The notes beneath the pieces are model-generated. The model worked only from the letters and a program-made list of their open reading frames with translations, did no database searches and had not been told where the DNA came from. The translations under genes and the position numbers were made by a program. Of a stretch of 59,488 nucleotides of DNA, positions 27,845 to 45,870 are shown one piece after another (within the stretch, counting starts at the first letter, position 1; the number at the start of each line of letters is the position of its first letter). The stretch comes from a bacterium (GTDB taxonomy: Bacteria > Fibrobacterota > Fibrobacteria > UBA11236): positions 1-59,488 of the forward strand of contig OMJM01000080.1 of assembly GCA_900299345.1 (NCBI GenBank), read 5' to 3'.

Positions 27845-28270
27845 TTACTTCGTTTTTCCGGTCTTGCCTTGTGTGGCCTTCTGTGACGACACATCGGTTG
27901 CATTGGCCATGCAATCGCAATTCATCAAAACGGTGCCAGCGGGACATTCCGTGGGATCGGTGATTTTGCAGTCCACCTTCGCAGTGGAGCCGGTTTTCTT
28001 GTTGACCGTGGGCAGAACTCTGCTTGATGAGGATTCGTCCTTGCCGGAATCAACCTCGACAATACCGGAGGCCGGGCGCCCCTTTGCATCGACCTCCCGG
28101 TGAAAACCTGCGGTCGACGAATCATTCTGACCCGCATTGCCAGAATCCTGTGGCGCCGCCATTCCTGATTTTGTCCTCAGGTTGCTGCGGGAAGTGGAGA
28201 TTCCCGCGGCGGAGACAAAGGCAACGACAGACAACGTCAGGAACGCGACTGGAAAAATGTTCTTTCTCAT
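27845..28270 (-). CDS. Small secreted protein with four clustered cysteines
   Basis: A 141-residue protein with a signal peptide (MRKNIFPVAFLTLSVVAFVSAAG) and a low-complexity Ser/Lys/Asp-rich body. A compact C-terminal segment carries four cysteines (KVDCKITDPTECPAG and MNCDCMANAT). An AAGGGGGA site precedes the ATG. The early SRSNLRTKSG resembles SRSNVSNNK of the neighbouring small secreted protein, suggesting common origin. It is the last gene of the leftward cluster. Function unknown. Confidence 0.65.
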   Translation of the reverse strand: MRKNIFPVAFLTLSVVAFVSAAGISTSRSNLRTKSGMAAPQDSGNAGQNDSSTAGFHREVDAKGRPASGIVEVDSGKDESSSSRVLPTVNKKTGSTAKVDCKITDPTECPAGTVLMNCDCMANATDVSSQKATQGKTGKTK

Positions 28271-28280
28271 TTCATCCCCC

Positions 28281-29007
28281 TTATTTCAGAACCGGATCGG
28301 TTTCAGGCAGCGGCTTCAAGGTGTCAATATCCGCAGGCAGGTTGGGACACCCTTTGCACGGATTGCCCTTCAATTTTCCGGCGGGTTGCGACGCTCCTCC
28401 CGTGCCACTGGAATACGAGACAGGTTTGTGCTGACGTTTACCCGTGGCTTGGCCGGTTGCAACATCGCGCGGGGCCACAGTCTCGTCCATTGCCCCATCC
28501 CCATTAACATCTCCGGTGGCCACACGTTTTCCTGTCGCCTGGCCGGATGCCACGTCACGAGGTGATTGTACGCTACTGCTCGCTGCATTAGAACTTGTCG
28601 ACGTGGGGGCCATCTCCGAGACAGAGGGCATGCTCGATTCCCGCGTGGACGACATCGAAGTACCGCCATTTTCCGAGGCCTGTGAACCGATGTTTGTAGC
28701 CTCTGCAGGAGAAGGATCCGCCGTTCCCGAACCGCTTTTAACCTGGACAGGGGTGTGCTGGCGTTTGCCCGATGCCTGACCTGTTGCCGCATCGCGGGGA
28801 GCACTGACGCTGGCCTCCGTCGCGTTCATTTCATTGCATGGCGAGGTGCTTGGCGATGTATCATCGCAATCCCCCGAAGAAGTCACGGTTCCCTTATTGT
28901 TGGAAACGTTCGACTTCGTTTTTTTTTTGCTGAGCCGCGCCGGTCTCCGTGATGACGATGGCAAGAAAAGCTGCAAAGAGTGTGGACGTGAGGTAATGTC
29001 TGTTCAT
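28281..29007 (-). pseudogene. Secreted GKR-repeat protein interrupted by a frameshift at an A10 tract
   Basis: An AGGAG-preceded ATG at 29007 opens a signal peptide (MNRHYLTSTLFAAFLAIVITETGAA). It then reads QQKKNEVERFQQ and stops near 28888. The other frame, open to 28281, continues KSNVSNNKGT, the sequence expected by comparison with the paralogue at 29049-29708. One A less in the ten-A tract (28919-28928, minus strand) would restore a protein of about 241 residues. It contains three copies of an R-D-A/V-A-S/T-G-Q-A-S/T-G-K-R motif, an EF-hand-like DVNGDGAMDE loop, and a CKGC pair. It could be a sequencing error, a phase-variable gene or a transcriptional-slippage site. Confidence 0.7.
28919..28928 (-). 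repeat. A10 homopolymer directly after a signal peptide
   Basis: Ten adenines on the minus strand at codons 19-22 of the gene starting at 29007. The tract is the exact place where the reading frame must change to join the signal peptide to the repeat-containing body. Confidence 0.9.
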
Positions 29008-29048
29008 GGGAAACTCCTGGGTTGAGGTTTCTTCAAGATGATTCAGGA

Positions 29049-29708
29049 TTACTCTTTCGCTTTGTTTTTCTTGAGAGCATTGGCGACATTCGTTCCTTTA
29101 AAAGGATCGCTACCGGGTCTGGCCTGCACCGTGGTATCCTCCTCAGTCCCATCCGGGCTGGTTGTTACACCATGCTGGCGCTTGCCTGTAGCCTGTCCAG
29201 AGGCGGCATCTCTTGGCGCTCTTCCTGCTTGAGCGCCCGTGCCCTTCGTATTGATGACGTGATCCGTAGTAGTGGGTGGTTCCTCGGCGGCAATGCCTGC
29301 GGTTCCTGTCCCTTTCGTGTTAATGGCATGTTCGTCCGGAGTGGGATTGCCTTCGGGAGAGGAAGCGGACGGAGCCGTAGTGGTTGCAGCCGTGCCTTTC
29401 GAAATGGCAGGAAGGTTCACTTCGGCTTCCGAAGTTTTGGCCTTACGCTTTCCTGAGGCCTGTCCGGATGCAGCATCCCTTGCCGTGGTTTCCACATAAG
29501 GATCCGTTGCATAATCCTTGTTCGCTTTGACGCAGTCAGGTGCGTCTGCGCGACCATCACAGTCCTGATCCTTGGGATCATTAGTCGTTTTATTGTTGGA
29601 CACGTTGCTTCGGCTCACCGGGTGGTTTTTGTCCGCGGCCTGCACACCCGTGACGGTGAAGGCGAAAAAAGTGGCGGCGAGGATTGCGGATGCGAACAGG
29701 TTTTTCAT
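29049..29708 (-). CDS. Secreted repeat protein with GKR motifs and a TSP3-like loop
   Basis: A 219-residue exported protein, intact paralogue of the interrupted gene next to it. The signal peptide is MKNLFASAILAATFFAFTVTG. The early segment KDQDCDGRADAPDC resembles a thrombospondin type 3 calcium loop. ARDAASGQASGKR and APRDAASGQATGKRQH are two copies of the shared motif, and HAINTKGTG/HVINTKGTG form a second repeat pair. The rest is Thr/Ala/Pro/Glu-rich. An AAGGAG site precedes the ATG. Function unknown; possibly a surface protein made with the upstream modules. Confidence 0.7.
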   Translation of the reverse strand: MKNLFASAILAATFFAFTVTGVQAADKNHPVSRSNVSNNKTTNDPKDQDCDGRADAPDCVKANKDYATDPYVETTARDAASGQASGKRKAKTSEAEVNLPAISKGTAATTTAPSASSPEGNPTPDEHAINTKGTGTAGIAAEEPPTTTDHVINTKGTGAQAGRAPRDAASGQATGKRQHGVTTSPDGTEEDTTVQARPGSDPFKGTNVANALKKNKAKE

Positions 29709-29844
29709 GGGGACTCCTTGTTCAAAGAGAAGGGGTGCTCGTTAAACTACTCGATAACAGGGGAACGCGCCGTTCGAAATATGCTGGTAATCATTGATTC
29801 CGTCGTAAAATAGGCATATGGTGATCCAAAACACCTCAGGAAAG

Positions 29845-32025
29845 TCAGAGAAACATTTCGTAATAGGCCCCAGCCGTGATGCTGGATCGACTGCCGTAGG
29901 AGATCCAGCGTTGTCGAAGGTTGACCGACTGGTTTTCGCGGATTCGGTAGGTGACACCCAGAACCTCCCCAAAACTCAAATCATTTTCCGTCTGGGTTTT
30001 AGGGTACTGACTCAGCAAAAGATCAGCGCTGCCGCGCAGTTTGCTCCGCATGAACACATCCTGAACCCCGATGATGACGCTGTTCGTGGGTTTTTGGATG
30101 CCGTTGTTCGCAAAAGTATAGGCCAGCTTGGGAATGAAGCTCGATCCCCGGAAACGGTATTGGAAGGCAGTGTTGATGATATGGGTCTGCGTCACAGGAA
30201 ACGACAGCAGACTGTCCAGTGAGGAGGAATCCGTGGATTGGAGTTCCAGCTCACTGCGGGTGTAACCATACAACAGTGAACCATGCAATGTTCCGGGACC
30301 TGCGTTGACCTGGTGAAAGCCGCCGATATTGAACTGGGCGAAATCCTGGCTGAACTGATAAGGATAAACTCCCTGAGGCACGCGACTCGTCAAACCTCCA
30401 TTGACCCAGAAGGCGGGTTTATAGGCGCCTGGGACGTAACGCACTTCGGCCTTGAACCCCCGCTCTTCCTGCTTGTACAATCCGAGATTTTGCATGAAGT
30501 CGGAGACCTCGCTCCCGAGAAACAGACGATTGTCCAATACGACGAACCGTTGCTGGAGGTTCCAGCCATATCCTGGATTGGAACCGAGAAACGGATTGCC
30601 TTCGCTGTGATAATCTGCGCCGAGATGAGAGAAGCGAAGTTGGGTTTCGGAAACCATTCCCGGAAATGGAAGAGAAGTACCGACACCCATATCATACGCG
30701 CTGCTGGTCTTGAAAAATCCCCAGGGATCCACTCCCTTGCCACCATTTTTGCTTTTGAGAAGATACTGCCAGGCGCGAGTCGTGGGATTGAAAACGAAAA
30801 GCCATTCATAGTCCTTGGGATTAAAAGCCACGTCGAAACTGTCGGTTCCAAATGCCCCGATGGAACGATCGCGTGTGAACAGGCTTCCCGCGTAATCACC
30901 AAAGATTTGAATACGGTCTTGCCAGAAGCCCATGCGGAGATCCAGGCCGAGCACCAGATTATCCACGGGTGTGACACCATGGAGGCTGTCACGCAGGGCC
31001 TGGAACTGGCCGTTACCGTTCTCTTCCGAAGCTTTTAAAACGGTAATTCCGAGATCGAAAGTGGATCCACCGCCAAATCCCAAACGGAATGCCGTTAGAT
31101 TTTGTGACGGTGTTCCTGCAACCGTGTCGAAACGCGTCCCACCGCCGGTATCATATTCGGCAACATAGGCCGGAATTTCGCGTTTGGTTTCTCCCGTAGT
31201 AAACTTGGCATAGGCCCAATGGTTCTCACCACTACCCGTGACCACGGCGGCACCCATTTCCGTGCCTCGGATGCGCGTGCCGTTCAGAATGAGTTCATTG
31301 TAGGTCGGATACACGTCTCCGCCTTTGAGATAGGCCCAGGGTCCATAGGACAATCTTGCGGAAACCCGATCGGCCGGTTGCCGAAAATGGTTCTCATCCG
31401 TACGTACCAGACCTCTGAAATTTCCCTCCCAATATCCGTCCTTGATGGTGTAATTCACCTGTGCAGCGGCATCCACGTCACGCGACAGGGGTGTTTCACG
31501 CGACCCCGAGACAATGCTGTCACCCCGGATTTTCAACTCGGACTGCTGCACGACACGGCTACGCGCGTCTCCGCCTTTCCATTCCGCCTGGGCTGTGACT
31601 CTTCCGAAGCGGCGTAATTTGCCCTTGAGTGTATCCCGTTTGGGTTCCGGAACACGGACAAAAAAATGCACGGAGCGGCTTTGCTCAATGACGCCATTCT
31701 CATTGAGAAAAATCAGCTTGAATTCATGCACTCCCGGAGAAAGTCCGGGAAGGTCGACATTCAGCAAACCATTCTCAAGATGGAGGGGGCGATCCAGGGA
31801 AAAGCCATCGAAAACCGCGAGCATCGCAGCTGGGGGCGTTCCTCCCACATAAGCCACGATCCGCACATCCGGTTTGTAAAAAACGTCTCCTTCGGCCGGC
31901 ATCAGAAAAGAAAGACTCGTCAGGGAGGAAGACGTATCCTTTGCGGCTTCGTCCGACGACTCGGCAGGAGCTTGTTGCGCCTGAAGCGGAATGACGAACA
32001 AGAGCAGACTAAAAAGTGCTCTCAT
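29845..32025 (-). CDS. Outer-membrane barrel-like protein, module copy 1
   Basis: A 726-residue exported protein from the ATG at 32025, which follows GAGGTGGAG. Signal peptide, then an Ig-like domain (about 30-150, LSFLMPAEGDVFYKP to HFFVRVPEPKRDTLKGK). The long remainder has amphipathic beta-strands and aromatic girdles, ending YYEMFL, as in outer-membrane barrels. It overlaps the FecR gene's end by 17 nt. Closely matches the paralogue at 34043-36247 in length and motifs (YGPWAY, GDVYP, LILNGTR, YHSEGNP, WNLQQR). Channel, assembly or secretion role unknown. Confidence 0.7.
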   Translation of the reverse strand: MRALFSLLLFVIPLQAQQAPAESSDEAAKDTSSSLTSLSFLMPAEGDVFYKPDVRIVAYVGGTPPAAMLAVFDGFSLDRPLHLENGLLNVDLPGLSPGVHEFKLIFLNENGVIEQSRSVHFFVRVPEPKRDTLKGKLRRFGRVTAQAEWKGGDARSRVVQQSELKIRGDSIVSGSRETPLSRDVDAAAQVNYTIKDGYWEGNFRGLVRTDENHFRQPADRVSARLSYGPWAYLKGGDVYPTYNELILNGTRIRGTEMGAAVVTGSGENHWAYAKFTTGETKREIPAYVAEYDTGGGTRFDTVAGTPSQNLTAFRLGFGGGSTFDLGITVLKASEENGNGQFQALRDSLHGVTPVDNLVLGLDLRMGFWQDRIQIFGDYAGSLFTRDRSIGAFGTDSFDVAFNPKDYEWLFVFNPTTRAWQYLLKSKNGGKGVDPWGFFKTSSAYDMGVGTSLPFPGMVSETQLRFSHLGADYHSEGNPFLGSNPGYGWNLQQRFVVLDNRLFLGSEVSDFMQNLGLYKQEERGFKAEVRYVPGAYKPAFWVNGGLTSRVPQGVYPYQFSQDFAQFNIGGFHQVNAGPGTLHGSLLYGYTRSELELQSTDSSSLDSLLSFPVTQTHIINTAFQYRFRGSSFIPKLAYTFANNGIQKPTNSVIIGVQDVFMRSKLRGSADLLLSQYPKTQTENDLSFGEVLGVTYRIRENQSVNLRQRWISYGSRSSITAGAYYEMFL

Positions 32026-32680
32026 ACTCCACCTCAAGCGTGCTGAAATCCTCATTGGTCGAATTCATGAAATCGACTTCGAGAATATTCTGACGCAACC
32101 CGGCCTGTTGCAATTCGGAATCCGCAGCGTCGCTGATGCGCAATCCATTGACATCCGACACCGCCTTTTGTCCGCGGCGCACCGTTTCGTTGGAACTCTT
32201 GGCCCGGTTGTTCACTTCCACAGAACCGTCCAGAACGATCAAGGTTGAGTTTTCCGCGTTGGCGCTGAACAAAAATCGCGCCTCCTTTGCCCGTGCCCAT
32301 GAATGGGTGTCCTCGATGAAAAGATCCGGAGAATTTTTCTGCACAGCGAGGGCGATTTGACCGTCTTCGATTTTGATGCGTCGCGCCCTGGAGGAGTCTG
32401 AACGGGAATAATTCAGCCAATAACGGGTTTTGGCACGAGCCTCTATCCGAGTAAAATCGGGATGGAAGCGCAGCACACTCAGGCCATTCTCTCCCGTGAC
32501 CATGGTCTGGCCGGGCGGAATCACATCGCCTTGCTTGATTCCCGTTGCAATGGAAGTATCCTGACCCAGAACGCGTACTTCTCCGCTTTCCTGACGCACC
32601 ACGGCAAGGTAAGGCTCATGCATCGGGGCTGCCCCAAGCATCGCAAAACTCGCGAGTGAAAACAAAAATCCGGTTTTCAT
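32009..32680 (-). CDS. FecR-domain protein, module copy 1
   Basis: A 223-residue exported protein with a short signal peptide and a FecR-type beta domain (VRQESGEVRVLGQD, then GDVIPPGQTMVTGENGLSVLRFHPDFTRIE). In known systems such domains sense or bind ligand in the periplasm and signal to anti-sigma partners. Here there is no transmembrane anchor or sigma factor, so it is more likely structural or ligand-binding. The ATG overlaps the upstream gene by 4 nt, and the end overlaps the barrel gene by 17 nt. Confidence 0.72.
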   Translation of the reverse strand: MKTGFLFSLASFAMLGAAPMHEPYLAVVRQESGEVRVLGQDTSIATGIKQGDVIPPGQTMVTGENGLSVLRFHPDFTRIEARAKTRYWLNYSRSDSSRARRIKIEDGQIALAVQKNSPDLFIEDTHSWARAKEARFLFSANAENSTLIVLDGSVEVNNRAKSSNETVRRGQKAVSDVNGLRISDAADSELQQAGLRQNILEVDFMNSTNEDFSTLEVEYESTF

Positions 32681-33954
32681 TGGAATCTCACCCGCGTCAC
32701 GGTCTGGCGCGACTGTTGGAATTCCCGTGCCAATCTTTCAAGATCTTCCAGAGAGCAGGGGCGTCCATTGATGCGCATTTGCCCTTTGGCTGGAAATTTA
32801 TCCGCGCGAGTCAAGTCCAGGGCTTCGAAGTTTTCACCCAGAATAATCTTGAGTGCCGAGCGAACGCGCTTGATATAATCATCGCCGTAAAGAACCTGCG
32901 CACCGCGTGATTCCGCTTCCACGAAATCACCGCCGGTAAGCTCGGAAGATTCGCCCCCGCCCAATCTTGAATCAATCTGGAATTGAAGCGCGTTGGAAAA
33001 CCGGTATTCATCCTCCGGGCCGCGAAGTAGCGCCCTTACCCTCCAGACATAGGTCCTGCCCGGGACGAATTGCGGCTGATCCGGAGGGTATACAACAGGC
33101 ATTTGGTTGGAAACGGGGAACTTCGCAAATTCCACACCGTCCAGAACGTCCTGTGGATTTTCTCCGTCATGCAGTTCATAGATGAAAATCTCCATTTTGG
33201 GTTCATCATCAGGATACTGGAATTCCTGATTATTGATGAGATCCGAAACCACGCTGAAGAAAGGCGTCAATGTGTAAATGGTCACAGGTTTTGCATTGGT
33301 CACGTCCGTTCCCGGAGTTAATGCTTGCAATGTGTGCACATAACGCAAGGAGGCCGTGTCGCTGTAAACCACATTCTTGAATCCAATGCTTGTGTTTCCT
33401 TCGGTGACGGGAGAGCCGCCGCAGAACAAGCGAATCTCGATATGGAGGTTCATCTGGGGTAATTGCCGCTGCTCAATCAACAATTCGTAGAGGGGATTGT
33501 TCTGGTCAAATTTTGTGCCACCCGCCTGAAATGGCAGCGCAAACACGTCACTCGAGGGCAGTGGAACACCGAGATCGCTGGAATCCAATGGTAATGTGGT
33601 ACGATCGAAAGCCACCATTTTGGGAGGATTTCCAAGCCTTCCCAGACTGGTGTCCGCCCAGATATAAATGCTCAAGGTGAGAGGCCCGGATCCTTTCAGC
33701 AAAGGCGAAAGGTAGAGTGTAAACAACGGCGTACTTTGTTGCGAGTTGTCGGTGTTAAACCAGTTGAGATCGAAGGAGGTAACTGTATAGTCCAGAATGG
33801 GCGCCAATACTGTCATGGGATGAGTATTGGTGGCAATATTGGCGGCACAGGATCGGAAATCTGAGGAGCGGGTCCAACCTTTGCCGGAAAAAAGAAGAAC
33901 AACAGCCACTAGGCCGACAGTAAAACCGGGAAATTTATGGAGCCGAAGATTCAT
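32677..33954 (-). CDS. Exported protein of about 425 residues, module copy 1
   Basis: 425 residues from the ATG at 33954 (GGAGC upstream). A hydrophobic signal peptide is followed by beta-rich sequence. Near residue 315 there is a fibronectin-III-like segment (TYVWRVRALLRGPEDEYRFSN). The C-terminal tail is conserved in the paralogue: YGDDYIKRVRSALKIILGENF, then GQMRINGRPCSLEDLERLAREF. No known family recognised. Probably a periplasmic or surface partner of the FecR and barrel proteins encoded next. Confidence 0.6.
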   Translation of the reverse strand: MNLRLHKFPGFTVGLVAVVLLFSGKGWTRSSDFRSCAANIATNTHPMTVLAPILDYTVTSFDLNWFNTDNSQQSTPLFTLYLSPLLKGSGPLTLSIYIWADTSLGRLGNPPKMVAFDRTTLPLDSSDLGVPLPSSDVFALPFQAGGTKFDQNNPLYELLIEQRQLPQMNLHIEIRLFCGGSPVTEGNTSIGFKNVVYSDTASLRYVHTLQALTPGTDVTNAKPVTIYTLTPFFSVVSDLINNQEFQYPDDEPKMEIFIYELHDGENPQDVLDGVEFAKFPVSNQMPVVYPPDQPQFVPGRTYVWRVRALLRGPEDEYRFSNALQFQIDSRLGGGESSELTGGDFVEAESRGAQVLYGDDYIKRVRSALKIILGENFEALDLTRADKFPAKGQMRINGRPCSLEDLERLAREFQQSRQTVTRVRFQ

Positions 33955-34042
33955 GTAAGCTCCTTGCCGCATCCCTATGTGCCGAAATTAACAAAAGACC
34001 TTTGAATAACCTTGCGATCGCCATCACAGTCCTTGAGTTGGC

Positions 34043-36247
34043 TCAAAAGAACCTCTCATAGTTTCCCCCTAGGATCAGGGTAATCCGGTTCCCATACTTG
34101 GACCATTTCTCACTCATGCGAACCGTCTGCTTCTCTCCGCTGCGCCAGGTGATGGTTAGATTCTGACCAAAGCTGACGGCATTCCGGGTCGTGCTTTTGG
34201 GATATTGCCCCATCAGGAAATTGAGATTCGTGAGGAGCTTCTTGGAAAAAAATGCGTCTTGTACTCCTCCGGTGCCCTTGTGAACGGATTTTTGAACACC
34301 ATTGTCGGAATAGGTGTACGAAACACGCGGCTGCAGATTCGAATCGCGAAAACGGTACTGAACCGAACTGGTGGTCACATGCATTGTGACGGCTGGATAG
34401 TCGTCGGGCGCCACACTCGAGTCGGAGGATTCAACGATGAGCCGGCTGTAGGTATAACCATATTGGGAGGAGAAATTCATAGTGCCAGGTCCGGCTACGA
34501 ACTTGTACTGCCCGCCGATATTCAATTCATGGAAATCCTGTGAGTAATCGTAGGGGGCGTTTCCTCTCGGAAATTGGACTGTCACTCCCCCATTGACCCA
34601 GAACGCCGGCCGGTATGCTCCGGGCGATATGCGGATGTCTCCTTTGAATGAGCGAGCCACTTGGCGATAATCGCCGAGGTCCTGCGTGAAATTGGAGACT
34701 TCCGTCCCGAACTTAAGACGGTTCTCAAGCACGGAGATCCGTTGTTGCAAATTCCATCCCTCACCCGGGTTTCCACCCAATGAAGGATTCCCTTCGCTAT
34801 GGTAATCGATTCCAAGGTGATTATAACTGGCATCGGTTTCAAACACAAAACCGCCCACAGGGATGGAGGTGCTCACACCAGCGTCATAGGCGCTATTGGC
34901 GTCCACAAAGCCGCGGCGATCCGAATGTCCGGTCGAATCGCCGAGCAGATATTCCCATCCCACGGTGGTTGGATTAAGCACAATGAAATCCTCATAGTCG
35001 GCCGGTTCGAAGCTCTGAGCCGTACTGTCGATATTAAAGGCACCAAGGGAACGATCCCGGGTGAAAAGGCTGAGCGCCCATTGCCCGTAAAGTTGAATGC
35101 GCCCCTGCCACAGACCAAGGCGAGAGTCGATACCCGTGACGACGTTTTCACCTGGACGAGGGCCATCCAGATATTCATTGAAAAGTTCGTGCAGGCTGTC
35201 TTCGTCGGCCTCTGATGTTTTCATGACCGTGAGTCCGAGATCAAAATTTTCTCCGCCGCCGACCCCCAGCCGAAACGCGGACAGGTTTTGAGAATAGGTT
35301 CCCGGAACGTAGTCCACACTGTATCCCCCATTACCATCGTCTGTTTCCACGACATACGCCGGGATTTCACGCCGGGATTCTCCGCCAGTCACTTTTGCAT
35401 AGACCCAATGAGTGCCACTGTCACCGGTCACCAGCGCCGTGCCGGCCTCACCACCGCGAAGCCGGGTTCCGTTGAGGATCAAGGAACTATAGGAGGGGTA
35501 GACATCACCGACATTGACATAAGCCCACGGTCCGTAAGACACGCCCGATGAAAATCGGTTGGCGGGTTGCCGGAATCGGTTTTCATCACTGTTCAATTCA
35601 CCGTTGAGGTAGCCTTCCCAATGCCCGTATTTGAAATTGTATGCCACCTCCATGCCCGCATTGAGATTCTTCGAAAAAGGAGCTTCTCCCTTTCCAACAA
35701 CCAAGGTATCATATGGCCACGTTGTATCGGTTTCCGGAACTGTTTCCACTCCCACGAGGGGCGATTGCTTGACAATTCGACTCGCAGCATCTTCCCCCCG
35801 CCATTCAGCTCGCGCCGTGACCTTTCCATACTGGCTGAATTTCCCTTTCACAGTGTCCCGTTTGGGTTCGGGAAGCCGGACGAAGAAATGCACCGGTGGT
35901 GTCGTGGCAATTTTTCCGCTGTCGAGATACAGTACGCGTATTTCGTGGATCCCCTCGCTCAATCCACTGAGGTCAAGACTCAGGACATTGTTTTCAATCT
36001 GCGGAAGTTTCGGTATTGAGAATCCATCCAGCACAATCAATGTCCCCGAAGTGAGACCTTGCAGTCTGGCCACGACATGCAACTCGGGGACATAAAAGAC
36101 ATCCCCTTCAGCGGGAATCAAAAAAGAAATCACGGGCGGATTTTGTGCCGTTGTATCCGACGCAAGACTGTCCCTTGCCGGAGCATTTTGGCCGAATACG
36201 CACGATGCTCCGAGCAACAGACAGACAAGATTAAAAGTTGGTTTCAT
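34043..36247 (-). CDS. Outer-membrane barrel-like protein, module copy 2
   Basis: 734 residues; same plan as the protein at 29845-32025: signal peptide (MKPTFNLVCLLLGASCVFG), an Ig-like domain with FLIPAEGDVFYVPEL and VHFFVRLPEPKRDTVKG, then a barrel-like region ending NYERFF. Shared blocks such as YGPWAY, GDVYPSY, LILNGTRL, YHSEGNPSLGGNPGEGWN and FWVNGG confirm homology, although the two have diverged considerably. It overlaps its FecR gene by 17 nt, as in copy 1. Confidence 0.7.
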   Translation of the reverse strand: MKPTFNLVCLLLGASCVFGQNAPARDSLASDTTAQNPPVISFLIPAEGDVFYVPELHVVARLQGLTSGTLIVLDGFSIPKLPQIENNVLSLDLSGLSEGIHEIRVLYLDSGKIATTPPVHFFVRLPEPKRDTVKGKFSQYGKVTARAEWRGEDAASRIVKQSPLVGVETVPETDTTWPYDTLVVGKGEAPFSKNLNAGMEVAYNFKYGHWEGYLNGELNSDENRFRQPANRFSSGVSYGPWAYVNVGDVYPSYSSLILNGTRLRGGEAGTALVTGDSGTHWVYAKVTGGESRREIPAYVVETDDGNGGYSVDYVPGTYSQNLSAFRLGVGGGENFDLGLTVMKTSEADEDSLHELFNEYLDGPRPGENVVTGIDSRLGLWQGRIQLYGQWALSLFTRDRSLGAFNIDSTAQSFEPADYEDFIVLNPTTVGWEYLLGDSTGHSDRRGFVDANSAYDAGVSTSIPVGGFVFETDASYNHLGIDYHSEGNPSLGGNPGEGWNLQQRISVLENRLKFGTEVSNFTQDLGDYRQVARSFKGDIRISPGAYRPAFWVNGGVTVQFPRGNAPYDYSQDFHELNIGGQYKFVAGPGTMNFSSQYGYTYSRLIVESSDSSVAPDDYPAVTMHVTTSSVQYRFRDSNLQPRVSYTYSDNGVQKSVHKGTGGVQDAFFSKKLLTNLNFLMGQYPKSTTRNAVSFGQNLTITWRSGEKQTVRMSEKWSKYGNRITLILGGNYERFF

Positions 36248-36902
36248 ACTCCATTTCTAGAGTACGAGATTCCTTGGTTGAAGGATTCCAGAAATCCATT
36301 TCCAGGAAATTCTGGAATGCACTGACCTCTTGCAGATCGGCTTGTGAAGCAGTGGTCAGCTTAACGCCGGTGGAATCGGATACTGCTTTTTGCCCACGGT
36401 GGACGGTTTCAACCTGGTTCGTAACGGTATTCCGCAACTTCACTTCGCCCGCAAGCACAACTGTGGTAGACACGCCGGAGGCCGAAGCAAATGAGAACCG
36501 GGATTCGACTGCTTGAACCAGTGAATGCGCATCTTCCGTCTTTAAAGATGGCCCGCGCTTTGAAGCGCTCAAAGCCAGCAGACCCTGATCGAGAACGATG
36601 TCACGTAGTTCTGACGAATCGGAACGTGAAAAGGCCAAGTGGAACATGGTATTGGCACGCGCTACAATCCGCATAAAGTCAGGATGAAACCGCACGATCA
36701 AGCCTCCCCCTTCCCCAACGGCATATTTTTCCCCGGATTGTGGCAAATCGCCGACCTTGACTTCCTTGGATGACGTATCCGGGCCCATTAATCGGACATT
36801 TCCGGAAACCTGTCGCACCACTGCATCATATCCGAAAGGTCTTGCCGCATCCTTTGCGGTTGCCAAAGAAACCCACAATCCAATCCAGATCCAGTATCTC
36901 AT
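36231..36902 (-). CDS. FecR-domain protein, module copy 2
   Basis: 223 residues, exactly the length of the paralogue at 32009-32680. FecR-type domain: VVRQVSGNVRLMGPD, then KVGDLPQSGEKYAVGEGGGLIVRFHPDFMRIVA, and the shared RGQKAVSD. The signal peptide is short. Both junctions (4-nt overlap at the start, 17-nt at the end) match copy 1, so the module duplicated as a unit. No cytoplasmic domain is present. Confidence 0.72.
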   Translation of the reverse strand: MRYWIWIGLWVSLATAKDAARPFGYDAVVRQVSGNVRLMGPDTSSKEVKVGDLPQSGEKYAVGEGGGLIVRFHPDFMRIVARANTMFHLAFSRSDSSELRDIVLDQGLLALSASKRGPSLKTEDAHSLVQAVESRFSFASASGVSTTVVLAGEVKLRNTVTNQVETVHRGQKAVSDSTGVKLTTASQADLQEVSAFQNFLEMDFWNPSTKESRTLEMEYETNF

Positions 36903-38188
36903 CGGAAATTCAACCGGGTCAGACTGTGGCGCGATTTCCCGAATTCACGGGCCAGCCGTTCGAGATCTTCAAGCGAATATGGATCGCCGTTGAGACGAAT
37001 TTGTCCGTTCGCGGGAATCCAATCACCGTGCGGCATCAGGGCGTTGTAGTTGGAGCCGAGAATGACCTTGAGCGCAGCCAGCGCTCGCTTCACGTAGTCA
37101 TCGCCATAGCGGGTCTGTCCCGGAAAAGTCTTGGGTTGCGAAAGTACTTCTGCTGGCTCGCCATCGCCTCCTGTTTCAAGGCGGGGATCGACTTTGAACC
37201 ACAGGGGGTTGGAATAACGGTATTCGCTTTCCGGTCCGCGCAGAAGCGCACGAACCCTCCAGACGTAAACATTTCCGGCAATCAACGGAGGCTGCCCCGC
37301 CAGGTATAGCACGGGATATTCCTTTCCGACTTCAAACCGGGCATACTCCATGCCATTTAAAACTTCACGCGGATTTTGACCGGAATGGACTTCGTAAACG
37401 AAGACCTCCATTCGTGGCTCTCCATCGGGATATCTGAAATCTGAACCATTGAAGAGATCCGATGTGATTTGGAAGACGGGATTCGACGTGTAGATCAATA
37501 CCGGCGACGGATTCGCGGCGTCGGTTCCGGGAGACATGGCTTGCACGGTGTGGACATGGCGGATGGGCGTTTCCGATTCGGAAGTAGCGGACTCAAAGGT
37601 CACGGTCACGCTGTTGTCCGTGACCGCGGCACCATTGCACAGCAATGACAGCGAAACATGCAGGTTCATTTCCGGTACCTGATGCTGCTCCACAATCATG
37701 TTATACAACCCGGAACGCGAATCAAAGGTCACCCCTCCCGGCCGGTAGGGCAACGCAAAAATTTCTCCTGAAGAGAGCGGGTGTCCGATCAAAGAGGAAT
37801 CCAGGGGCATGGTGGTTCGATCGAAGGCCACAATACGGTTCGAGGAATTCGTCGTCCGGCCCAATGCCGTATCCACCCACACGTAAACCCGCAAGGCAAG
37901 GCGGCTGGCATAGGGCAGCATCGCGCTTGAAATGGTCGCTGTAAATAACGGCGGCCCCTGGTACGAAGCATTACCGTTGAACCAATTGGGATCAAAGGAT
38001 GCGATGGTGAATTTGAGCAGTGAGTTGTCCACTCGAAGCGCGGGCTTTCCGCTCACGACCGCAGGATCACCGCATGCTTTGAAATCGGAACGCTTAACCA
38101 GAACCCTCTTGGCCGCAATTGCGCTGCTGAAACTCGACAGCAGCAAACCCAAAGACGTAACGAGACACCATCGGTAGCAAGGACGCAT
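36899..38188 (-). CDS. Exported protein of 429 residues, module copy 2
   Basis: Paralogue of the protein at 32677-33954. Signal peptide MRPCYRWCLVTSLGLLLSSFSSAIA; shared blocks include TLPLDSS/TMPLDSS, YVWRVRALLRGPESEYRYSN, YGDDYVKRALAALKVILGSNY and GDPYSLEDLERLAREF. AAGGAACACG precedes the ATG. Two cysteines near the start of the mature part are also present in copy 1. Function unknown. Confidence 0.6.
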   Translation of the reverse strand: MRPCYRWCLVTSLGLLLSSFSSAIAAKRVLVKRSDFKACGDPAVVSGKPALRVDNSLLKFTIASFDPNWFNGNASYQGPPLFTATISSAMLPYASRLALRVYVWVDTALGRTTNSSNRIVAFDRTTMPLDSSLIGHPLSSGEIFALPYRPGGVTFDSRSGLYNMIVEQHQVPEMNLHVSLSLLCNGAAVTDNSVTVTFESATSESETPIRHVHTVQAMSPGTDAANPSPVLIYTSNPVFQITSDLFNGSDFRYPDGEPRMEVFVYEVHSGQNPREVLNGMEYARFEVGKEYPVLYLAGQPPLIAGNVYVWRVRALLRGPESEYRYSNPLWFKVDPRLETGGDGEPAEVLSQPKTFPGQTRYGDDYVKRALAALKVILGSNYNALMPHGDWIPANGQIRLNGDPYSLEDLERLAREFGKSRHSLTRLNFR

Positions 38189-38218
38189 CGTGTTCCTTCG
38201 CCGGTTGACGTTCCGAAA

Positions 38219-39460
38219 CTAGTAAAAGGCCCGATACAGGTCTTTACCGTACATTTCCTGCACCCAGGTCAGGTCTTTCAACCCGAAGCGAATTGATAAA
38301 CCCTGTGACTCCAGGCCTGTATAAGGCCAGCCGTCATATCCCAGTTTGGGCTTGTCTTGCGAGGGACCTTCAAAGTGAAACCAAAGATCCTTTTCCAGCT
38401 GTCGTGCCGCATCGGGTTTTTCGTTCTGGCAGTACATGTGATAAAGGAGCTGCGCCATGGAACGCCGATGTAAATCCTTGGGCAAACCTTCTTCCAGAAA
38501 TTGCTGTGCTGCTTGACGCGCTTTTTCCGCACGAGGGTCAGCCTCATTCATGCAGCATGCTCGCAAGACCCGGGCGTAGAGCTCATATAGATCCGCTTCA
38601 CGATATCCGGCACGCCCCGCGTTCGCGAGGCAATCCATTGCGAAGTAGTGGTAGCCGAGATGATATTGGGCTTGGGCAAGCAAAAACCATCCCCGCCCGT
38701 ACCCGGAAAGTTTCGCCAGACCGAGATCGAGGTACTTTACCGCTTCGGTATGACGCGCGTGGGATTCCAGAAACTCGCCATAGGCGATTTGTAAATCCGG
38801 AAGCGAGTCACGCACGGAAGATTTCGCTTTCAGAAAGTATTCCCATTCGGAATCGGGGCGCAGCTGTCGCAGTAAAGAAGCCTTGGCCAGCGCCGCAACG
38901 CGGTTATGGGGTTTTTCCCGCAACACATGGTTCAGTAGTGCGTCGGCTTCCGAATATTGAGCTCGAGCGAGGTATAGCCCCAGTAAGTTACGCCATGCCC
39001 CCTCCCCTGCCAGTGAACCGGTCTTCCACTCGCGCTTCCATCCAGATTCGGCCGCTTCAATTTCTCCTCTCAGGCAAAGCAGCAACCCCATATCCACCTT
39101 GACGCAGGCCTGCAAGTACGGAGATGACCTTCTGCCTCTAAGACGACTCCACGCTGAGTCGGCTTTGCCTGAAGACAACCTTTTGATAAAGGCTCTCAAT
39201 CCTTCCACAAAGTCGGTTTCAGATGGTGTCAACGCGCCATTCGGCAACAACAGGGAGGGCACTTCCGTGGTCGAGGCCAGTAAGGCGTAAGTGTTGGAAC
39301 CCGACAAGGAATCCGGGAAAACAAGTACCATGGCGGCAGTGGGTCCGGTTGCATCCCGGTTGTTGGAGGATAGAAGTGGGATCTCCACTTCATAAACACC
39401 CAATGCTCCAATCGAAGGTGCGAGCAGCGTCAGCAACAGGCAAATTCGCAAGAAGAACAT
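38219..39460 (-). CDS. Exported TPR-type protein heading the module cluster
   Basis: 413 residues from the ATG at 39460; the signal peptide is MFFLRICLLLTLLAPSIG. An in-frame start at 39529 would overlap the divergent dcd start and is not preferred. The central part (about 130-380) has helical repeats of TPR character (LLGLYLARAQYSEADALLNHVLREKP; YLDLGLAKLSGYGRGWFLLAQAQYHLGYH). TPR proteins often scaffold envelope complexes. It is 30 nt upstream of module copy 2, so it likely leads the leftward operon. Confidence 0.65.
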   Translation of the reverse strand: MFFLRICLLLTLLAPSIGALGVYEVEIPLLSSNNRDATGPTAAMVLVFPDSLSGSNTYALLASTTEVPSLLLPNGALTPSETDFVEGLRAFIKRLSSGKADSAWSRLRGRRSSPYLQACVKVDMGLLLCLRGEIEAAESGWKREWKTGSLAGEGAWRNLLGLYLARAQYSEADALLNHVLREKPHNRVAALAKASLLRQLRPDSEWEYFLKAKSSVRDSLPDLQIAYGEFLESHARHTEAVKYLDLGLAKLSGYGRGWFLLAQAQYHLGYHYFAMDCLANAGRAGYREADLYELYARVLRACCMNEADPRAEKARQAAQQFLEEGLPKDLHRRSMAQLLYHMYCQNEKPDAARQLEKDLWFHFEGPSQDKPKLGYDGWPYTGLESQGLSIRFGLKDLTWVQEMYGKDLYRAFY

Positions 39461-41760: not shown

Positions 41761-44700
41761 TTATCTGGATAGAACCAGGATATTCCGCAACGACTGCTTC
41801 AATCCTTGTGCCGGAGCCCCATTGCTTTCATCCCACATGGCGGAGACTTGATAGAAGTAAACTCCATTGCCAAGCGACTGTCCCCATGCATCCGTACCAT
41901 CCCAATGCACCTCTCCCGATTTGGCGTCGCGATACTCGCGCACCATATTTCCGGATTGATTGAAGATCCGTAGATCGAATCGTACGCGCTCTGAGTTGGG
42001 GGCGCTTCCCTGCACACCCAGTTGCCCCGCATCCTGCGGTAATGTCGTGGAGAAGTAGAAGGTCGTGCCTGCACGTTTGACGGGATTGGGAGCATTGAAA
42101 GCCTTTACGAACCGTAAGGCGGTATCCGACGAGGTGACAAGCACCATTTGCCGGGAACCGAGATTTCCGAATCCATCGCGCGCCGTGACTTTGAGCAGAT
42201 GCGTTCCAGAGATTTGCCCGTTTTGTAAAGTCAGCTGATAACTCTTGTGATACAGATCATCCACACCCGGCTGGGGGTGGTATGGATCGATGGCTCCGGT
42301 GATTTCGACCGTGGTCCCTTCCTCCGGGCCATCACCGGACATCACTCCACCGAGACTGTCGCTCACATCGATTTGAAGACAATAAGGCAATGAAACTCTC
42401 ACCTTGTCAGGGAAATTCACCCCTCCGCTTTCACGAAGGTTGCACCCGGTTACGGAAATTTTCGGACCGTGCCCATCGTCGGGCACCGTACAAGCACTGG
42501 AGTCCGCCAATCCTTGGATCGAAAGATGTCCAATCGCATGATTTGTTTCCATTGCCTTTTCCGCATCCCAGGCGAAAAATTCGATACGCGCTGTCGAGTC
42601 TCCAAAGGGAACTTCCTTGGGCAAGAAATAATCCATCGCGAATGCCGAGTCCTTGTATTCCATAGTGCGTTCGAAAAGGATGGGACCGCGTTTCATGACC
42701 TCATTGTTGTACGGATATACTTTTCGAATGTTACCGCCCACGATACGAATGTTTATAAAGCCATGACCGCTCCCTCCTGGGATGCGGCCTTTGATCGTGC
42801 CACACTGTAATGACCTCAGCGTATCAGGCGTGGTGAGAGAATCAATTTTTACTCCCGGCCTTCGAATTACTGTGACAGGCTCTCCAAATAGAGTGTACTT
42901 CTGTTTATTGCCACCATCGAAACCAAGAATATTTTTTGCATTCTGAACTGCCATCCCCACTGTTCTTGGAATGGAATCATCCCCCTCCGAAGGGAATAAT
43001 CTCGAAACCATTGCCTTACCTAAATTTTCGTTTGGACCAGGGTATGATTCCCGGGTAGCCGCCAGCCCGGCAATGGCGCCGTAATCCTTCTGTTTAACAT
43101 ACTGTTCGATCATGCCTTCGTCTGTAAGTAATTCAAACCGGCCGACCGTACAACTGAATACCCCCACCATGAAATTCTTGTTTATGTTGCGCATTCGCGA
43201 CAGCGCGTCTGCGGTTTTCATCAGTTGCTCATCCGCCCATTGATTGTAAGCGCCATGCCCAAAAAAATTCAAGTATAGGGTCCCGGCATTCAAGTTGTTC
43301 AATAAATCTGTTTGCGCTTCGGGCTTCAAAAAGTTGGAATTAGCTGGATAGTCGAACAGATAAATCTTATCGGTTCTTGTCCCGGGCTGTTTTGCCAGAA
43401 TTTCGTTTCCGAGTCGTTCCGATTGGGTGGTGTGATCCTTGATGTTGTCGACGTCTCCGGGCTGTCCGTGTTGTGTAGCGTCATCTGCAGCCAATGTCAC
43501 ACGACCACGCCATTCCCCGGCTGTTGAAGGATCCTCGTATTGTTTGATCTTATCCAGATAGTTTGCAGCCTGTTCCGCAGTTTGTACCGGCAAACGTCCT
43601 AACGCAACACTCAATCTTCCGTTTTCCCATCCCGTACCCGAATCCAGTACTGCATAAAAATCATCGGAATTTTCAGGATTAGTACCTGTGGGATCGTCCA
43701 AACTAAACGGCGGAATGTGATTCGGTGTCGGGTTGGTCCGAGAGGCGTTGAGGATATCCCGGTAATCATAATGGCCATCGCCATAGAGCAGGACATATTT
43801 CAGTGCCCCCCCCCAGTGCTTTAAAGCCCACCGCAAGGCATTTCTGATAGCAATCGGGGATCTCCGTCCTCCCGACCACTCGCGATAAATATCTTCGGTG
43901 CGCACCACGGAAGTTGTCAAAGGCAGCAACCTTTTGGAATCGCGACGGTAATCAGCCAGTTTTAATGCCTGTGTCAGCAACGCATCAGGAGCCACAATCA
44001 GATATTGCGGGTTTCCGTTGCCGGTCAGCAGATTTTGCGCCATTCCTGTCTCCGTGTGGATGCGTTCTAAAGACAATGATGTCGGATCCACATTCCGTGC
44101 CGAAGAATAAAGCCAGTAATGGATGTCCTCTCCATCTCCCACACTGTCCGTGAAAACACCATTTCCCCCAATGGACTGAACGGGAAGCCATCGCGCACCC
44201 ACTCCAGATTCAACACGGAGACAGTGGACCCCCGCCCCCGCTTGAATCTTGTAGGCTATCCACCGTCCCGGATCCCCCGGAAATACCACTCGCTCATTTC
44301 CATTCCAGGTTAGATTTCGCTTGTATCGAATCGTGTAACCTTTGAAAGCCCTGTCCGTTCCGCTCCATTGAACGCTATCCAATTCCAATCGAGTGCCGGA
44401 CAAGGCAGGAGCGAAGTACCATGCTCCAAAAATGAAAAACGTCGTGTTAGGCAGAACTGCCATTTGCGAACCATTTCTCCAAGCGCTCAGGTTGGAGTAA
44501 GTCCCCGTATAGGTGAATACACCCACGCAAACGGTGTCCCCTGAGTTTCCCTGTAACGTGTCCGCCGCGGGACTGCGCAACTGCGCTGCGTTCAAGGTGA
44601 CAGGTCGCGGGTTGCTGATGTTGTAACAATCATCCTTGATGTACCAGCTCCAATCATACCCCGATTCTTTGTCGAAGTTATTGGAAAGATCGCAGGAACC

Positions 44701-45870
44701 TGTTTTTTCGTCGTGTTCCGCGCGCAAATAATGTGGTGTCACGGATAAGGAATCCACCGCGCCATGCGGGGAACGGTTTGCCAGACGCTGTGCGGCACCG
44801 TCGCCGCTTCCGCTCCAATCAAGGTAATAGTGATTGATAAAGGAATAGGGATCAGACTCGAACTGCCAGCGAATCGGCAAGTTGAAAACGCCCGTCAATG
44901 CTCTCCAAACACTTGTGCCATGGGCGAAAAACAGGATGCTGTCTCCTGCGTCAAATGTGCCAATGAGGTTCCTGTCTATGATTTGAACAGGAATCTCTTT
45001 CAGTGTCGGAGGCAATCCACCCGACATTGTATCCACCCTAAAATCGGGTTTGTCCTTGGAGCCGGCATACATCCGTAAATTCTGGATCGGAACTCCCGAT
45101 ATCGTCTGACCCGCCTTGTCGCGGACATTTTCATAGGTCAGAGCGTATACGCCATCTTCGGCGAATCCATCCACCTCATGATCACCAATGGAAATGTTGA
45201 GGTAGCTGCTTCCAAGGTTGAAATGCGTTCGTGAAACCTTGGCAAGACTAGCTTGCCGCGGTAGCGAGGTCAGATACTGTCCTCCCTGGACATTTTTGAC
45301 TTCCGCCTGCGCCAGCCATTCTCGTGTACGAGTATCCGGAGTGGCGCGCGCATCGGAAAAAGCCACGTGCACCCGGAACCGCTTGAGCATGTGAACAGCG
45401 TTCGAACCTTCGTTATAAGTTCCCAAAGGCAGGGCAATCTTCCGTAGACTCATGCCGCGATAGATTTCGTTTGGTGAAATCGAGGATGACAGGCTTGCCG
45501 CGGCTGCGAACAAGGTTGCGTCCTTCAATGGTTCTGCACTCTTAGGGGTCGTCCATTTAGGAACCCCCGCCAGCGGCTGGGACAATGCCACATCCTCCCA
45601 TTCCAATGGCTCGATGGAAACGGAAGGTGTTTGAGTCCCGCTGGCAATCTGGAATCCATACCACGGCAGATCCGGTGCGCCTGATTTTCCGCTGGAAGTG
45701 AACCCATCGGTCACCACGCGATCGCCATTCAATCCTGGTTCAATCTGATAGGACGGAACTTCGACTTCCACGGTTAAACGGGAAGGGGCATCCTCAGTGA
45801 CGATCTCCCGGCCGGATATTGGAAAGGCGGCGAAGAACGCCGCCAGCAAGAGGAAACGAAAGCTATGCAC
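41761..45870 (-). CDS. C25 (gingipain/PorU-like) peptidase with a FlgD-like C-terminal domain
   Basis: 1369-residue exported protein. The signal peptide is MHSFRFLLLAAFFAAFPISG. The C25 catalytic region starts near residue 620. Catalytic His872 lies in NFFGHGAYNQW and catalytic Cys907 in VGVFSCTVGRFE, a His-Cys spacing typical of gingipains and PorU. The end (about 1265-1369) is a FlgD-like Ig fold (AFNAPNPVKRAG, GNGVYFYQV). PorU is the T9SS sortase in other FCB bacteria, and the size and end domain favour that role here. The alternative is a secreted gingipain-like protease. It lies just downstream of rpsA. Confidence 0.8.
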   Translation of the reverse strand: MHSFRFLLLAAFFAAFPISGREIVTEDAPSRLTVEVEVPSYQIEPGLNGDRVVTDGFTSSGKSGAPDLPWYGFQIASGTQTPSVSIEPLEWEDVALSQPLAGVPKWTTPKSAEPLKDATLFAAAASLSSSISPNEIYRGMSLRKIALPLGTYNEGSNAVHMLKRFRVHVAFSDARATPDTRTREWLAQAEVKNVQGGQYLTSLPRQASLAKVSRTHFNLGSSYLNISIGDHEVDGFAEDGVYALTYENVRDKAGQTISGVPIQNLRMYAGSKDKPDFRVDTMSGGLPPTLKEIPVQIIDRNLIGTFDAGDSILFFAHGTSVWRALTGVFNLPIRWQFESDPYSFINHYYLDWSGSGDGAAQRLANRSPHGAVDSLSVTPHYLRAEHDEKTGSCDLSNNFDKESGYDWSWYIKDDCYNISNPRPVTLNAAQLRSPAADTLQGNSGDTVCVGVFTYTGTYSNLSAWRNGSQMAVLPNTTFFIFGAWYFAPALSGTRLELDSVQWSGTDRAFKGYTIRYKRNLTWNGNERVVFPGDPGRWIAYKIQAGAGVHCLRVESGVGARWLPVQSIGGNGVFTDSVGDGEDIHYWLYSSARNVDPTSLSLERIHTETGMAQNLLTGNGNPQYLIVAPDALLTQALKLADYRRDSKRLLPLTTSVVRTEDIYREWSGGRRSPIAIRNALRWALKHWGGALKYVLLYGDGHYDYRDILNASRTNPTPNHIPPFSLDDPTGTNPENSDDFYAVLDSGTGWENGRLSVALGRLPVQTAEQAANYLDKIKQYEDPSTAGEWRGRVTLAADDATQHGQPGDVDNIKDHTTQSERLGNEILAKQPGTRTDKIYLFDYPANSNFLKPEAQTDLLNNLNAGTLYLNFFGHGAYNQWADEQLMKTADALSRMRNINKNFMVGVFSCTVGRFELLTDEGMIEQYVKQKDYGAIAGLAATRESYPGPNENLGKAMVSRLFPSEGDDSIPRTVGMAVQNAKNILGFDGGNKQKYTLFGEPVTVIRRPGVKIDSLTTPDTLRSLQCGTIKGRIPGGSGHGFINIRIVGGNIRKVYPYNNEVMKRGPILFERTMEYKDSAFAMDYFLPKEVPFGDSTARIEFFAWDAEKAMETNHAIGHLSIQGLADSSACTVPDDGHGPKISVTGCNLRESGGVNFPDKVRVSLPYCLQIDVSDSLGGVMSGDGPEEGTTVEITGAIDPYHPQPGVDDLYHKSYQLTLQNGQISGTHLLKVTARDGFGNLGSRQMVLVTSSDTALRFVKAFNAPNPVKRAGTTFYFSTTLPQDAGQLGVQGSAPNSERVRFDLRIFNQSGNMVREYRDAKSGEVHWDGTDAWGQSLGNGVYFYQVSAMWDESNGAPAQGLKQSLRNILVLSR

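Follow-up and report, generated by a model that had tools for sequence, protein, structure and literature searches.

A FecR-domain gene adjoining the gene of an outer-membrane barrel is the arrangement seen in the FecA-FecR-FecI systems; operons combining FecR with DUF928 are found in cyanobacteria, and FecR-type surface adhesins, Lsa33 and Lsa19, occur in Leptospira. A pairing of FecR with the CHASE2 sensor has been described in the Burkholderia biofilm operon BiofilmReg (PMC5192318). The locus analyzed here shares with the Fec systems the adjacency of a FecR-domain gene and a barrel gene, but its FecR-domain protein has no membrane or anti-sigma part, no ECF sigma factor gene is present among the neighboring ORFs, and none of 18 barrel sequences scanned against Pfam matches the plug family of TonB-dependent receptors. 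A first-pass annotation of this DNA had remarked that the FecR domains lack the usual sigma/anti-sigma pair, and indeed no sigma factor gene adjoins them. Comparable scans of 14 members of the accompanying exported protein recovered no DUF928 domain, and literature searches for FecR with Fibrobacter, or for FecR with DUF928, returned nothing. One of the FecR proteins of the locus (F1, below) is similar to Lsa33 in its FecR region (E 4e-5), although its score lies far under the curated cut-off for membership.

The window, i.e. the whole stretch of DNA analyzed, is an entire 59.5 kb contig of a 2.24 Mb metagenome-assembled genome (MAG) from Fibrobacterota. It contains a run of ten minus-strand genes extending from 39460 down to 27845 (Table 1), in which X denotes an exported protein with two Ig-like domains, F a FecR-domain protein and B a predicted outer-membrane barrel. 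This bears out the single-strand layout given by the first-pass annotation, including the leading position of the TPR gene, which is divergent from dcd and only marginally exceeds a Pfam TPR cut-off (23.7 versus 23.5 bits). Scans for promoters and terminators gave results no better than those for shuffled sequences. Near the operon, at 41761-45870, the window encodes a PorU-like C25 peptidase whose C-terminal domain is of the T9SS type.

Table 1. Genes of the ten-gene run in transcriptional order (window coordinates)
Gene	Product	Coordinates	Strand	Remarks
TPR	TPR protein with signal peptide	38219..39460	-	413 aa from internal ATG at 39460; first of run
X2	Exported protein; predicted two Ig/FN3-like domains and C-terminal helix-hairpin-helix tail	36899..38188	-	429 aa
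F2	FecR-domain protein; conserved C-terminal tail	36231..36902	-	223 aa
B2	Predicted N-terminal Ig-like domain and ~24-26-strand outer-membrane barrel	34043..36247	-	734 aa
X1	Paralogue of X2	32677..33954	-	425 aa; ORF opens at 33972
F1	FecR-domain protein above Pfam cut-off	32009..32680	-	223 aa
B1	Paralogue of B2	29845..32025	-	726 aa; conserved 17-nt F1 overlap when read from 32025
S1	Small secreted protein; two Hcp-loop motif copies (residues 77, 166)	29049..29708	-	219 aa
S2	Three Hcp-loop motif copies; signal peptide in other frame	28281..29007	-	ATG 29007
S3	Small protein with signal peptide; no Hcp-loop motif	27845..28270	-	141 aa

The two X-F-B units of this run, which had been read as matching three-gene modules in tandem, proved to be paralogous over their full lengths, with identities of 46-48% for X, 45% for F and 49-51% for B that, by sequence comparison, are far above chance expectation. 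Their overlaps are also equal, namely 4 nt between X and F and exactly 17 nt between F and B in both units (using the starts at 33954 and 32025), and the 17-nt F-B overlap is found again in most relatives. F1 exceeds the Pfam FecR cut-off (31.2 against 24 bits) and is the sole site in the whole genome to do so; F2 falls under it (17 bits), but judged by its sequence is a clear paralogue of F1 despite the weaker score. Two units were seen only in the window genome, and the tandem copy is best explained as an additional paralogue that has diverged, the module normally being single-copy. As B1 and B2 do not group together in the tree of the barrels, the duplication seems to be older than the split from a relative in the same genus (G027), with the trees of X and F being poorly resolved.

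To understand the spread of this module we searched 151 genomes of the phylum with profiles for X and B. B was recovered in 23 of the 151 and X in 21, all of which also contain B. The positive genomes belong to eight families (f1, f5, f7, f8 and f10-f13), often standing beside negative relatives, and neither protein occurs in the large f3 group or in G023, a 98% complete genome of the window's own genus. At every locus that could be checked within a contig the genes follow the order X-F-B on a single strand, the remaining loci being genes at contig ends or on separate short or broken contigs. Unlinked occurrence of the families in relatives, named by the first-pass annotation as grounds for refutation, was not observed; they are linked wherever the contigs permit. 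In f1, the family of the window genome, the same TPR gene lies 5' of X in all genomes with sufficient contig, and the operon occupies a constant position in both genera, between genes that from our own reading of the ORFs we take to be dcd and an FAD-dependent oxidoreductase. These genera differ in genome size, with 2.2-2.7 Mb in the window's genus (g1) and 5-6.8 Mb in its sister (g2). Among named relatives, the closest barrels come from Fibrobacterota MAGs; a contig scan with short patterns reached close relatives and has no bearing on other phyla, and plasmids searched for B gave no match. Two further loci deserve mention. In G070 a frame break or stop divides the B gene between two ORFs (L031:4083-6229), which may reflect a defective gene or a misassembly. 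The G040 locus (L118:8983-14021) has no X; it encodes a FecR protein carrying Ig-type repeats directly 5' of a large barrel that resembles B weakly, perhaps hinting at a wider FecR-barrel class.

Neither X (14 members scanned) nor B (18 members) matches any Pfam family, and for both there was no match in NCBIfam and none credible among PDB sequences; a PDB sequence search with F likewise returned nothing credible. AlphaFold models of the two proteins, built from shallow alignments (7 and 9 sequences), are of low to moderate confidence (pTM 0.37 and 0.50). The model of B displays an N-terminal Ig-like domain followed by approximately 24-26 strands (pLDDT 64), pointing to a very large outer-membrane barrel, a prediction that agrees with the envelope module claimed by the first-pass annotation. 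Foldseek placed the FimD/PapC ushers at the top for B, and its ten best matches further include LptD and MtrB (TM ~0.2-0.35); all of these barrels carry or enclose other molecules. An identity with LptD was rejected, with hhalign assigning a probability of 0.5% against the Escherichia coli protein. The model of X comprises two Ig/FN3-like domains followed by a conserved C-terminal tail folded as a helix-hairpin-helix, and its Foldseek matches are solely to tandem FN3-like proteins. Given the shallow alignments and TM values of ~0.3, the folds of both X and B are to be read at the level of class only.

The F proteins vary in a manner that is informative about their likely architecture. In f1, f5 and f8 they consist of a FecR domain and a short tail, and in f7 and f10-f13 between 1 and 7 InlB-type repeats (Flg_new_2) are inserted between the two. 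The last ~20 residues are alike in all families, with the pattern LxVxF...TLxVxY. These sequences suggest that F is composed of a head, a stalk whose length varies and a constant tail for anchoring or recognition. InlB-type repeats are a usual feature of surface proteins; hence, for the families that bear them at least, presentation of F at the surface is probable, with the repeats suggesting rather than proving exposure.

The trio is thus a real unit, conserved across the phylum, and since no named family was matched it probably represents an undescribed cell-surface system, in line with the earlier observation that the combination resembled no known one: X and B belong to no Pfam, NCBIfam or PDB family, and tests for identity with FecIRA, chaperone-usher and T9SS systems were negative. 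Gene anatomy and linkage are established by these comparisons, while the assembly or surface-display role proposed by the first-pass annotation is inferred, its best-supported mechanism being that F is displayed or anchored at the outer membrane. More specifically, the products of X-F-B may form an outer-membrane complex of fixed stoichiometry, with B anchoring or displaying F and X acting as the periplasmic partner, a proposal that we favor while holding it tentatively. B would be located in the outer membrane, where it would anchor F or allow it to pass, the C-terminal tail of F serving for recognition; the FecR head, together with the repeat stalk where present, would thereby be presented at the outer membrane or the surface. 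X would serve as a periplasmic adaptor, and in f1 the TPR protein might provide a periplasmic scaffold. Where the operon contains a CHASE2-adenylate cyclase, the complex would probably report to the cell interior through the cyclase.

This last association is the source of the main rival to display, namely a trans-envelope sensor in which B or X senses at the outer membrane and F relays the signal in the periplasm to an inner-membrane receptor, which would be a CHASE2-cyclase in some families and some other receptor here. A CHASE2-adenylate cyclase gene is indeed found inside the X-F-B operon in G070 (f7) and G005 (f8), where the FecR partner of CHASE2 is F itself, and across the phylum a FecR gene directly adjoins CHASE2 in 17 of 30 sampled loci (L123-L152), plus one marginal case. 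The FecR gene beside a CHASE2 sensor in f7 and f8 recalls BiofilmReg-type operons, a precedent for the pairing, but BiofilmReg as described has no X or barrel gene (PMC5192318) and the window genome has no CHASE2. Moreover, 9 of the 10 f1 genomes, including that of the window, lack a CHASE2 gene, as do the neighborhoods of most X-F-B loci, and F has a signal peptide as its only targeting feature, with no membrane or cytoplasmic part, and would be unable to signal alone. This distribution ruled out CHASE2 as a universal partner of X-F-B and, given its absence from most f1 genomes, signaling is not the general function as described; it may be a lineage-specific use. Sensing as the basic role thus appears somewhat unlikely, albeit a serious competitor.

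Less probable again is a purely structural complex, in which the task of F and X would be to fasten B to the cell wall or to stabilize the outer membrane, with neither cargo nor signal. The gene overlaps, which suggest a fixed stoichiometry, the TPR scaffold in f1 and, weakly, the LysM-like region that CHASE2-adjacent FecR proteins of the phylum can carry are compatible with it; however, Pfam scans detected no peptidoglycan-binding domain in X, F or B, the variable InlB repeats are better suited to a surface stalk, and the patchy distribution speaks against a housekeeping role. The Foldseek results had also raised a divergent chaperone-usher pathway with B as the usher, X as a two-Ig chaperone and F and the S proteins as subunits. 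The likeness lies in a very large barrel with an exported two-Ig partner, both seen in low-confidence models; against it, there is no sequence homology, with no usher or pilus-chaperone Pfam match in any B or X member and hhalign probabilities of 0.1% for the B profile against FimD and <1% for the X profile against FimC, no pilin-like subunit was found, and the domain order differs, the Ig domain of B being N-terminal and the usher C-terminal domains missing, on which grounds we rejected this very improbable candidate. A role as an accessory of the type IX secretion system of the same genome, suggested by SprA encoded elsewhere and the C25 peptidase gene ~2 kb upstream, is the least credible and was dismissed, because G023 has SprA but no X-F-B, F, X and B match no T9SS component family, and distant X-F-B loci have different neighbors.

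Downstream of the display module proposed above, the small S proteins led to a different set of relationships. S1 and S2 form a related pair; S3 is unrelated and lacks their motif. Four relatives of S1 and S2 are encoded in G027 and one in G100, and all members contain 1-3 copies of RDxASGxxTGKRxHKP or a near variant; small exported proteins of this kind are located at L018:14202-16467, L026:7010-7528 and 28281-29708 of the window. In S1 the differences between codon positions follow the order 3rd > 1st > 2nd, which supports its translation. A profile search with the S proteins recovered Hcp genes, which encode the tube protein of type VI secretion (T6SS), in all six g2 genomes. Conversely, a profile of the g2 Hcps detected S2 (E 2.5e-11), the G100 protein (5.8e-14) and one G027 protein (4.4e-21), and more weakly S1 (0.0026) and another G027 protein (0.066), with shuffled sequences reaching only E 7.5. 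These matches always fall inside Hcp residues 34-69, with no full Hcp domain in the small proteins, and the G027 protein with the best match clears the Pfam T6SS_HCP cut-off and agrees with Hcp at as many as 28 of 34 residues. The segment is the extended L2,3 loop of Hcp, for which contacts between stacked Hcp rings have been reported (PMC4650826, PMC5874247). The repeats of S1 and S2 are, from these profile matches, copies of the L2,3 loop segment; unlike Hcp itself, the proteins have no Hcp barrel fold and possess a signal peptide.

The signal peptide is common to the S1/S2 family except in S2 as read. There, a good signal peptide begins at 29007 in a frame other than that of the mature part, the two frames meeting at an A10 tract (28928-28919), and the break is either phase variation or an assembly error of the MAG. 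Accordingly, of the three small secreted proteins of the first-pass annotation, S1 and S3 have a signal peptide and the ORF of S2 does not. The same annotation considered these proteins possible products of the module. The data support this in part: each of the three g1 genomes with X-F-B has loop proteins beside it, and G023 has neither, but X-F-B is present without loop proteins in g2. The occurrence of the motif in 9 of 10 genomes of the family, the tenth having neither motif nor X-F-B, had raised the idea of an export signal read by X-F-B, which we withdrew as the sister-genus matches are real Hcp genes unlinked to X-F-B. The T6SS sheath gene TssC is found in 6/6 g2 genomes, in contrast to 0/4 of g1. 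Given that L2,3 makes ring-to-ring contacts in T6SS tubes, one could speculate, at rather long range, that X-F-B displays FecR-headed stalk proteins and is combined in this genus with secreted proteins of repeated L2,3 loops that might bind or cap the Hcp of attackers, or self-assemble, in a host without a T6SS.

The S1/S2 proteins offer a clear case of one secretion-tube loop being reused in secreted repeat proteins, and one that is directly testable. The conservation in eight families of a trio with two members outside any named family points to a conserved, unnamed envelope function in Fibrobacterota. It provides X and B with a partner for study, and presents FecR domains at work outside sigma-factor regulation, on a stalk that varies by repeats.
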